Positions 8,207 to 33,449 of a stretch of DNA of 64,000 nt are shown one piece after another (within the stretch, counting starts at the first letter, position 1; each line of letters begins with the position of its first letter). Below the pieces are notes generated by a model. That model saw only the letters and a list, made by a program, of their open reading frames with translations, was not told where the DNA came from and did not search any database. This DNA comes from Candidatus Gastranaerophilales bacterium (GTDB lineage: Bacteria; Cyanobacteriota; Vampirovibrionia; Gastranaerophilales; Gastranaerophilaceae). The stretch spans positions 434,001 through 498,000 of the forward strand of contig CALUVT010000001.1 in assembly GCA_944324345.1 (NCBI GenBank). The letters run 5' to 3'. Position numbers and translations under genes: made by a program.

Positions 8207-8252
8207 ATACTAAAAAATTGTTAACAGAGTACAAAAGCAAAAGGAGCAATTT

Positions 8253-8303
8253 ATGAAAAAAGAGAATTTTAGAAACTTCGGGGGGGGGGCACTCAGGGCT
8301 TAA
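8253..8303 (+). CDS. Leader reading frame 1 with G10 tract, upstream of prepilin 1
   Basis: A 16-codon frame, MKKENFRNFGGGALRA, starts at an ATG 6 bases after AAGGAG (8241-8246). Its Gly codons are a run of ten G. At this length it stops at 8301-8303, before prepilin 1. With 11 G (or 8) the frame would run GTQGLTNQSGACKKGSKC and on, without a stop, into the prepilin ATG at 8354, adding 34 residues. The nearly identical leader at 15439 behaves the same way. It could be an independent leader peptide, or the true start of a phase-variable prepilin. Confidence 0.6.
   Translation: MKKENFRNFGGGALRA
8280..8289 (+). repeat. Homopolymer tract G10 (candidate slippage site 1)
   Basis: Ten consecutive G in a very AT-rich region, flanked by TTC and CA. 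The only other runs of ten G or C in the window are at 15466 and 33412, both also upstream of prepilin genes. Tracts of this length commonly vary by replication slippage. Confidence 0.85.
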
Positions 8304-8341
8304 CCAACCAGTCTGGGGCTTGTAAAAAAGGTAGCAAATGC

Positions 8342-8372
8342 TATAATAGTGATATGAAACATCACTATTATA
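8342..8372. promoter_or_regulatory. Perfect inverted repeat around the prepilin 1 start codon
   Basis: TATAATAGTGAT and ATCACTATTATA form a 12-bp perfect repeat; the 7-base loop ATGAAAC contains the start codon. The left arm begins with TATAAT, and TTGTAA lies 16 bases upstream (8320-8325), so it could be a -10 region with an operator, or an mRNA hairpin hiding the start. Confidence 0.65.
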
Positions 8373-8974
8373 AAAAACAAGGATTTACCCTTGCAGAAGT
8401 TTTAATAACTCTTGGAATTATAGGAGTTGTTGCTGCTTTGGTTATACCTGCCAAAATAGAAAGTTATCAAAAAAAACGTGTAGAGGTAAAATTAGAAAAA
8501 TTTTATTCAACATTTAATCAAGCACTGCGAAGGTCTGTTGAAGAGAATGGTAGTATGCAGGGTTGGGTATATAATGGATGGTATGATTCAGAAGGCTCAA
8601 AAATATTTTGGCAAAAATATTTAGAACCATATTTTTCTTATGTGGAAACAAAAGAAAATTCCTGGGCAGTATGGCCCACAACCGGTTATGAGGTGCTTTT
8701 ACAAGATGGAAGTTCATTTAATATCTCAGGAACTTGGATAACATTTTATCCGAATGCAAAAGATTCAGGAAATCGTGAAAAGACTTGGCGTACCACTTTT
8801 TTATTTTCAGTGCATAAGGATAAAAATGCAATTTTACCTTATGGTATCACTAATAATAGGGCTAATTTATATATAGAGTGTAATAAGAATAATCCTTATC
8901 AATCCGCAAGTAAGTCTTGTGCTGCTGTAATAATGAAAAATGGTTGGAAAATTCCTGAAAATTATCCTTGGTAA
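8354..8974 (+). CDS. Prepilin-like protein 1 (type IV pilin / pseudopilin)
   Basis: The product has 206 residues. A short basic leader (MKHHYYKKQG) is followed by FTLAEVLITLG and a hydrophobic helix, the classic prepilin peptidase site: cleavage after Gly10, methylation of Phe11 and Glu at mature position 5. The C-terminal domain is soluble and Tyr/Trp/Asn-rich, ending CAAVIMKNGWKIPENYPW. The C-terminal C...I..(D/N)GW.I pattern recurs in the prepilins at 32653, 49581 and 50392. No Shine-Dalgarno sequence precedes the ATG; the ribosome site belongs to the G10 leader 101 bases upstream. Pilin assembly would depend on machinery elsewhere plus the PilT-family ATPases in this window. It may be a minor pilin rather than a major subunit. 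Confidence 0.85.
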   Translation: MKHHYYKKQGFTLAEVLITLGIIGVVAALVIPAKIESYQKKRVEVKLEKFYSTFNQALRRSVEENGSMQGWVYNGWYDSEGSKIFWQKYLEPYFSYVETKENSWAVWPTTGYEVLLQDGSSFNISGTWITFYPNAKDSGNREKTWRTTFLFSVHKDKNAILPYGITNNRANLYIECNKNNPYQSASKSCAAVIMKNGWKIPENYPW

Positions 8975-9157
8975 TGTTTAAATCCTTGTTATGTAAATTT
9001 TGCTTTTTTACCAAAAATCATTAAATTAATGCTGTCAGGTAGTAAATTTGCTTTAAATTCTCTGTTTTATCTACTGAATTTGGAGGATTTTTATCTTTTA
9101 CCTGTATAAAATCAACAAATATAATGTATTATAAATATAGAAAGGCAGGTAAATTTA

Positions 9158-15438: not shown

Positions 15439-15489
15439 ATGAAAAAAGAGGATTTTGAAAACTTCGGGGGGGGGGCACTCAGAGCTTAA
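15439..15489 (+). CDS. Leader reading frame 2 with G10 tract, upstream of prepilin 2
   Basis: A 16-codon frame, MKKEDFENFGGGALRA, begins 7 bases after GAGGAG (15426-15431) and has its own promoter. As in leader 1, it stops at the observed ten G. With 11 G the frame would read GTQSLTTGFKACKKTNKC and continue to the prepilin ATG at 15540, again adding 34 residues. Compared with copy 1 the intervening 66 bases differ at about a dozen positions, mostly changing amino acids, but without gaps or stops in that frame. Confidence 0.6.
   Translation: MKKEDFENFGGGALRA
15466..15475 (+). repeat. Homopolymer tract G10 (candidate slippage site 2)
   Basis: Ten G with the same TTC...CA flanks as the tract at 8280. 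Confidence 0.85.
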
Positions 15490-15526
15490 CCACCGGATTT
15501 AAGGCTTGTAAAAAAACAAACAAATG

Positions 15527-15559
15527 TTATAATAGTGATATGAAACATCACTATTATAA
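15527..15559. promoter_or_regulatory. Perfect inverted repeat around the prepilin 2 start codon
   Basis: TTATAATAGTGAT and ATCACTATTATAA, a 13-bp perfect repeat with loop ATGAAAC holding the start codon. TTGTAA lies 16 bases before its TATAAT (15506-15511). Same arrangement as at 8342-8372. Confidence 0.65.
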
Positions 15560-16367
15560 AAGACATGGATTTACATTAGCAGAAGTATTGATAACCCTAG
15601 GTGTGATAGGAGTTGTAGCAGTATTAACACTAACAACAGTAATCCCGGAAATCCAAAATAAACAAAACATTGCTAAGTGGAAAAAAGAGTATTCTGTAAT
15701 AAATACTGCATTTAATGAAGTTTTAGCGGATGGGGTGACTATATGCAATTACACTCAAGATGGTAATTGTAACGGGCAATCTTATACAGATGAATTTGTT
15801 GATGCACTACAAACAAAGTTGAAAGTCACTGATTATTGTGGTATTAGTACAAGTTATGTTCCGTCTAATAAACTATGTGACAATTATCCAACTTGGTCCA
15901 GAAAGGATGTTAAGTTTAAATGGGTAGGTGCAGCAAATGGATCTTGCAGTTATAGGCCTTTAGGAGTAAATAGCAAGTCTCAGCCGGATTCTTATTATCC
16001 ATATGGGATTGGGTGTTATAATTTATTAGGTCGACTTTCAATTTTGTTGAATGATGGTACAGTTGTTTATTTAGGAGAAAGCCATGGAGGTCCTTGGATA
16101 GTTGTAGATGTGAATAATTTTCAGAAAGGTCCAAATCAATTTGGCCGTGATGTTTTTGCAATAAAAGTAACGTCAAATATCAAAACAGATCAACATTATC
16201 TAAAGGCTATGGGAGCGGTAGGAACTTTTAATAAAGCTCAAAATGGGGATACTTGTGAGTGCTCACCCGATAAGGGAACAAAATCTGGAGTTTATCTTGC
16301 AGGGCAGGCCGGTGAAGGAGAAGTTATGTCCGGTGTATGTTGTTCTGCAAAGTATCTTTTGGAATAG
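15540..16367 (+). CDS. Prepilin-like protein 2
   Basis: The product has 275 residues. The leader MKHHYYKRHG, then FTLAEVLITLGVIGVVAVL and a hydrophobic helix form a standard prepilin peptidase site. The soluble part is long and Cys-rich (about ten Cys, including GDTCECSP near 236 and GVCCSAK near the end), with a N.FGRDVFAIKV stretch that corresponds to the GRDIFA motif of the other prepilins here. The C-terminus VCCSAKYLLE differs from the others. The ATG has no ribosome site of its own; the good one belongs to the G10 leader 101 bases upstream. The extra Cys suggest an extracytoplasmic, disulfide-stabilised tip or minor pilin. Confidence 0.85.
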   Translation: MKHHYYKRHGFTLAEVLITLGVIGVVAVLTLTTVIPEIQNKQNIAKWKKEYSVINTAFNEVLADGVTICNYTQDGNCNGQSYTDEFVDALQTKLKVTDYCGISTSYVPSNKLCDNYPTWSRKDVKFKWVGAANGSCSYRPLGVNSKSQPDSYYPYGIGCYNLLGRLSILLNDGTVVYLGESHGGPWIVVDVNNFQKGPNQFGRDVFAIKVTSNIKTDQHYLKAMGAVGTFNKAQNGDTCECSPDKGTKSGVYLAGQAGEGEVMSGVCCSAKYLLE

Positions 16368-32652: not shown

Positions 32653-33339
32653 TTACCAAGGGTAATAGTCTTTTATTTCCCAGCCGTCCATCTCTATTAT
32701 TGCCCCACAGTATTGTCCGGTTCCGCCTGTTTTATTACAATTCCTGTCTAATATCTGTTGTCTGCTGTAGTTATTGTAGTTATACATCTGGAGTTTATAA
32801 AAATTATTTTCTTCGTTGTTGTATCCATAAGTTGCGACAAAAATATCTCGTCCAATTATATTTTTTCCACTGATACCATTGACATCAATATTCACTAGAA
32901 AAACTCTTCTCTCTGGAGCATCATAATAAGAAATTCCATAAATATACCCTTGAGGCACTTGAAAAAAATAATAACCTGAAGTGGTATCCGACCCATCCAT
33001 AAGTTTTGGTGGATTTTTGTAGCCTGCTTTAGACCAGTCACCGAATTTTTTAATATTTGTATCTTTAAAAAACGGAATAATATATTTATCTGCAAATTCT
33101 TCTGGGCTTATACTCCCTTTTACAAAGCAGTCCCAGGTTTCCATATCGCCGTATTCCACTTGTGCAAGGGAAGCTGTTTGTTGCAAAAGGTTGTATGCTT
33201 GTTGAAGTCGTTTTGCGGTTTCTTTTTTCTGGTAATTTGTTATTAATGCAGGCATTGTAATTGCTGCCACGATACCAATAATTCCCAGCGTAATTAAAAC
33301 TTCAGCCAGAGTGAAAGCTTTTATTTTGTGATTTTGCAT
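32653..33339 (-). CDS. Prepilin-like protein 3
   Basis: The product has 228 residues. The leader MQNHKIKA precedes FTLAEVLITLGIIGIVAAI, so the cleavage site has Ala in place of the usual Gly before Phe, which is tolerated by some prepilin peptidases. A soluble domain with GYYFFQVPQGYIYGISYYD, a GRDIFVATYG stretch and a C-terminal CGAIIEMDGWEIKDYYPW matches prepilin 1. The ATG lacks a Shine-Dalgarno sequence; TATAAT ends 6 bases before it. The only good ribosome site belongs to the C10 leader 110 bases upstream. It could be a minor pilin of the same system. Confidence 0.85.
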   Translation of the reverse strand: MQNHKIKAFTLAEVLITLGIIGIVAAITMPALITNYQKKETAKRLQQAYNLLQQTASLAQVEYGDMETWDCFVKGSISPEEFADKYIIPFFKDTNIKKFGDWSKAGYKNPPKLMDGSDTTSGYYFFQVPQGYIYGISYYDAPERRVFLVNIDVNGISGKNIIGRDIFVATYGYNNEENNFYKLQMYNYNNYSRQQILDRNCNKTGGTGQYCGAIIEMDGWEIKDYYPW

Positions 33340-33395
33340 ATCATAATTATAATTGATAATTTCTTTTTTGTAAATATAGAAAGGTGAAAACCCCT

Positions 33396-33449
33396 TTATT
33401 TTAAGGTTTTCGGGGGGGGGGCAATTTCAAAGCTTCTTTTCCATACCAT
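33396..33449 (-). CDS. Leader reading frame 3 with C10 tract, upstream of prepilin 3
   Basis: A 17-codon frame, MVWKRSFEIAPPPKTLK, begins at 33449, 7 bases after GGAGG (complement of 33457-33461). It stops at the observed ten C. With 11 C (or 8) it would read ...APPPENLKIKGFSPFYIYKK and run without a stop into the prepilin ATG at 33339, adding 37 residues. Its sequence is unrelated to leaders 1 and 2, and its tract is C, not G, on the coding strand, so it supports the same logic independently. Confidence 0.6.
   Translation of the reverse strand: MVWKRSFEIAPPPKTLK
33412..33421 (-). repeat. Homopolymer tract C10 on the coding strand (candidate slippage site 3)
   Basis: Ten C on the - strand (ten G on the + strand). 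On the + strand the flanks are again TTC and CA as at the other two tracts, but the orientation relative to the gene is reversed. Confidence 0.85.

Follow-up and report, generated by a model that had tools for sequence, protein, structure and literature searches.

A genome-wide family of prepilin genes headed by runs of ten Gs in a Candidatus Gastranaerophilales genome, with evidence pointing to poly-G phase variation

The locus and its reading frames

A prepilin gene (prepilin 1) in the genome of the gut bacterium Candidatus Gastranaerophilales lacks a Shine-Dalgarno sequence at its own ATG and is preceded by a short leader frame with a good ribosome site that contains ten consecutive Gs and closes before the prepilin begins. 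We asked whether the length of this run determines the expression of the prepilin, and whether the locus is a single case. The window analyzed was 64,000 nucleotides of assembly GCA_944324345.1 (contig CALUVT010000001.1, positions 434,001 to 498,000 of the forward strand), and window coordinates are used for the following features.

8207-8990, plus strand: prepilin cassette between a deaminase-like gene and a fliE-like gene
8241-8246, plus strand: Shine-Dalgarno sequence AAGGAG of the leader
8253-8303, plus strand: leader frame MKKENFRNFGGGALRA*, closed at G10, with stop TAA at 8301-8303
8277-8301, plus strand: switch element TTC-G10-CACTCAGGGCTT, with G10 at 8280-8289 and the G run on the leading strand
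8320-8347, plus strand: possible internal promoter TTGTAA-16-TATAAT, 6 nt before ATG 8354 (consensus match only)
8342-8372, plus strand: inverted repeat TATAATAGTGAT-ATGAAAC-ATCACTATTATA with the prepilin ATG in the loop, a predicted RNA hairpin
8354-8974, plus strand: prepilin 1 (PF07963 N_methyl, over cut-off, and PF20318 DUF6613), with stop at 8972-8974, joined to the leader at G11
15439-16367, plus strand: second G10 prepilin (G10 at 15466-15475), needing +1
32653-33449, minus strand: third prepilin, with the tract at 33412-33421, which is C10 in the gene direction but G10 on the leading strand, needing +1

The frames were translated at each tract length. With one additional G, the leader runs in frame into the prepilin to give 240 aa, with FTLAE at residue 45 and a 34-residue extension. 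At the assembled length the leader stops after 16 aa, and with one G fewer it stops after 23 aa. These results confirm the arrangement proposed in the sequence-only reading base for base. The run is far from chance. Runs of nine or more Gs gave 6 overlapping hits in the window (three G10 runs), against 0.04 expected from shuffled sequences, and the lengths of G runs in the window were 4 (63 runs), 5 (11 runs), 6 (1 run), and then 10 (3 runs). The sequence-only reading missed the two other sites in the same window as well as 45 elsewhere in the genome.

Distribution of G10 tracts in the genome and the genus

The whole genome (1.76 Mb) was searched for G runs and contains 44 G10 and 4 G11 runs, no exact G7 or G8 run, and three G9 runs, none of which is flanked by C on both sides. 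Of these 48 G10 and G11 tracts, 47 lie in short leaders with a Shine-Dalgarno sequence and ATG upstream of type IV prepilin-like genes. The genome has 72 N_methyl matches, so about two thirds of prepilins carry the element. The exception (locus L031, contig C3:52088-52097 of this genome) lies inside the coding sequence of an acyltransferase (PF01757) and is in frame at ten. Its C10 arose by substitutions without any indel relative to two relatives, G020 and G029, whose orthologs lack it, indicating that insertion of the element as a discrete unit is not general. In another relative, G015, the element (locus L055) is inside a family 2 glycosyltransferase (PF00535), also in frame at G10.

We classified 45 prepilins of this genome by script; one of two identical elements in locus L013 was dropped as a duplicate, and the sequence retrieved for locus L014 was too short. 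At the assembled length 40 of the 45, including prepilin 1, are one G short of joining their leader, and 5 are in frame (G10 at L002 and L027; G11 at L019, L025, and L028). L010, at G11, is among those needing +1. The prepilin at L002 is fused to YadA head repeats (PF05658) and is an adhesin-like pilin.

Across 33 genomes of the genus there are 1621 G10, 148 G9, 150 G11, and 58 G8 runs (totals summed from per-genome counts), with up to 169 G10 runs in one genome. G10 runs were found in 29 of the 33 genomes; G002, G003, G022, and G024 have no exact G10 run. The TCG10C form is common in this genus, sporadic in other genera of the family, and almost absent from the rest of the class. Viral contigs gave no hit, and no known RNA element at the locus was found in Rfam.

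Frame design at different tract lengths

To study whether the tract length or a fixed recoding event sets the reading frame, loci were selected for G11 and G9 tracts and classified in the same way. The G11 prepilins were in frame in 32 of 37 cases, the G10 prepilins needed +1 in 65 of 67 cases, and the G9 prepilins needed -1 in 12 of 14 cases. The frame design is constant (L = 2 mod 3 in 109 of 118 loci), and the current length decides the state, as in phase variation. However, an assembly length error would produce the same pattern, and G9 and G11 calls could partly be such errors. Related gene bodies exist with different tract lengths and the same design, for example with 92.6% identity over 676 nt and G10 against G9.

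In 68 of 118 prepilin loci no in-frame ATG lies between the tract and FTLAE, and in 48 of 118 there is no ATG, GTG, or TTG at all, so the tract must be read through. The nonredundant linkers of this genome, 34-127 nt long, are open in the fusion frame in 29 of 29 cases (4.2 expected; joint log10 P -29.8), with one case of another frame open. This set was chosen by being openable in some frame, but nearly every tract locus qualified. Linkers in several relatives (L046, L173, L192, L210, and L213) contain long extra stretches (VIPNLFRDL, HSELVSES, VIAHLLRN-like) that look like dispersed repeats kept in the fusion frame. Since most genes are off at the assembled length yet intact, they are probably expressed at times.

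Strand polarity and possible exchange at the tract

The core YTC-G10-C and weaker bases up to AGC recur in all three reading phases and in genes read from the other strand. This weakens a peptide-level cause of the flank, although the reverse leaders (LRIAPPPEK-like) may share descent. By GC skew, the G run is on the leading strand at 48 of 48 sites, including 7 genes on the lagging strand that therefore read C10; some regional skews are near zero, so this rests on the overall two-switch pattern. In the relative G001, 64 of 65 neighboring listed sites on a contig share a strand. Transcript- or ribosome-level slippage does not predict this polarity, whereas strand-dependent replication slippage, or a factor acting at the fork, could account for it. 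Loss of mismatch repair does not explain high slippage, as MutS_I was found in 32 of 33 genomes, the exception being a 92%-complete genome with no G10.

The site between the deaminase-like gene and the fliE-like gene appears to be an insertion hotspot. Twelve relatives have about 0-18 nt there, 8 genomes including this one carry different G10-headed prepilins, and one more has 190 nt without a tract. The pilins of G015 and G001 at this site are alike from TCG10C onward and unrelated before it. Among paralog pairs of this genome, 42 share the right flank but not the left, against 3 the other way. This suggests module exchange at or near the tract, although weak constraint on the leader could also make the left side diverge faster.

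Interpretation

These results are best explained by DNA-level poly-G phase variation of a large, default-off prepilin repertoire, to which we assign a probability of about 0.72. In this reading, translation starts at the leader ATG and passes through the tract, and the poly-Gly leader would be removed by prepilin peptidase at G|F, so tract length affects expression and not the mature protein. At G10 most genes are out of frame (off); a rare gain of one G during replication makes G11 (on), and loss restores the off state. G10 behaves as the preferred length, so each cell would express a small random subset. Without read data and with one genome per species, the change of length within a clone is inferred. 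Slippage at the DNA level, removal of the leader, and a bet-hedging role are also inferred. The strong preference for G10 (82% of all runs of 8-11 in the genus) counts against this reading, and G9, also off, should be as tolerable as G10 unless mutation bias favors 10. The proposal of the sequence-only reading, that expression of prepilin 1 depends on tract length and that the assembled state is off or low, is supported as one case of a genome-wide system. However, it had expected lengths of 8, 10, and 11, whereas the lengths seen among motif tracts are mainly 9, 10, and 11.

Programmed recoding from a fixed G10, in which RNA polymerase adds a G or ribosomes slip -1 on the run, would fit the constancy of G10 and the nearly invariable +1 offset (-1 for the ribosome). 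It is nevertheless unlikely, because G9 and G11 loci are not retuned to +1 (only 2/14 and 3/37 need it), the tract and flanks follow the replication strand with C10 in the mRNA of reverse genes, and the reading phase on entry into the run varies. It is also doubtful that the tract does not gate expression and that the prepilin is made from a leaderless mRNA, with the leader as a separate small open reading frame. In favor of this, 26 loci of this genome have a promoter-like match of 9 of 12 or better in the linker, often TATAAT followed by 6 nt and ATG. The inverted repeat around the prepilin ATG, which is the same in many loci of this genome and seems partly kept in relatives, looks like an operator or RNA hairpin. 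For prepilin 1 itself, a leaderless, tract-independent short form is possible, although promoter-like matches around it are no more frequent than in shuffled sequences. However, several promoter-bearing loci (L012:2307, L013, L025, and L033) have lost the ATG while the fusion frame stays open, indicating that the short form is not a general requirement; in addition, 68 of 118 loci have no in-frame ATG there, and the linkers are almost never open in another frame.

Least likely is that G10 serves mainly as an exchange point that swaps promoter/leader modules between pilin genes, with frame effects being secondary. The flank comparisons described above are in its favor, but the run is uninterrupted, every classified locus keeps its own start and intact frame, and the fixed +1 design needs a frame explanation. 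A further, more novel possibility, which we consider unlikely but not negligible, is that the element of about 25 bp (YTC-G10-CRnTy..AGCTT) is a dedicated, replication-oriented switch. A trans-acting factor or fork-coupled structure would hold the run at exactly ten and produce programmed +1 events, so that tens to over a hundred pilins are sampled a few at a time, while the same element serves as the joint for exchange of promoter/leader modules.

Comparison with known systems

No description of phase variation or pilin switching in Melainabacteria was found in the searchable open-access papers. If switching is confirmed, gut Melainabacteria carry one of the larger poly-G repertoires known to us, built on a single gene family with one preferred length and a fixed strand polarity. 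It also means that automated annotation will call most of these prepilins short or misplace their starts.

In its sequence features the system is like the poly-G contingency loci of Neisseria and Campylobacter, although switching itself is inferred. As appears to be the case for Neisseria pilC and opa (Opa is listed in PMC11868660), a repeat tract lies in an N-terminal leader, probably cleaved, of pilus or surface proteins, out of frame would correspond to off, and there are several copies per genome. Here, however, there are up to about 170 tracts per genome, on the prepilins themselves, with one preferred length, a conserved flank, and replication-strand polarity. The pilE G4 element of Neisseria gonorrhoeae (PMC3547852) is likewise a strand-oriented G-rich element beside a pilin gene, with exchange of pilin segments, which is only suggested here. 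However, it has separated G tracts and one expression locus with silent copies, whereas here the run of 10-11 Gs is single and uninterrupted and the classified loci have their own Shine-Dalgarno sequence, start, and full gene. The poly-G loci of Campylobacter jejuni (29 loci in NCTC11168; PMC4965091) have tracts of similar length, surface functions, and many loci per genome. Their lengths are more spread (G8 26%, G9 22%, and G10 44% in the loci of that paper), while here about 82% are G10, one gene family is targeted, and the flanks are conserved.
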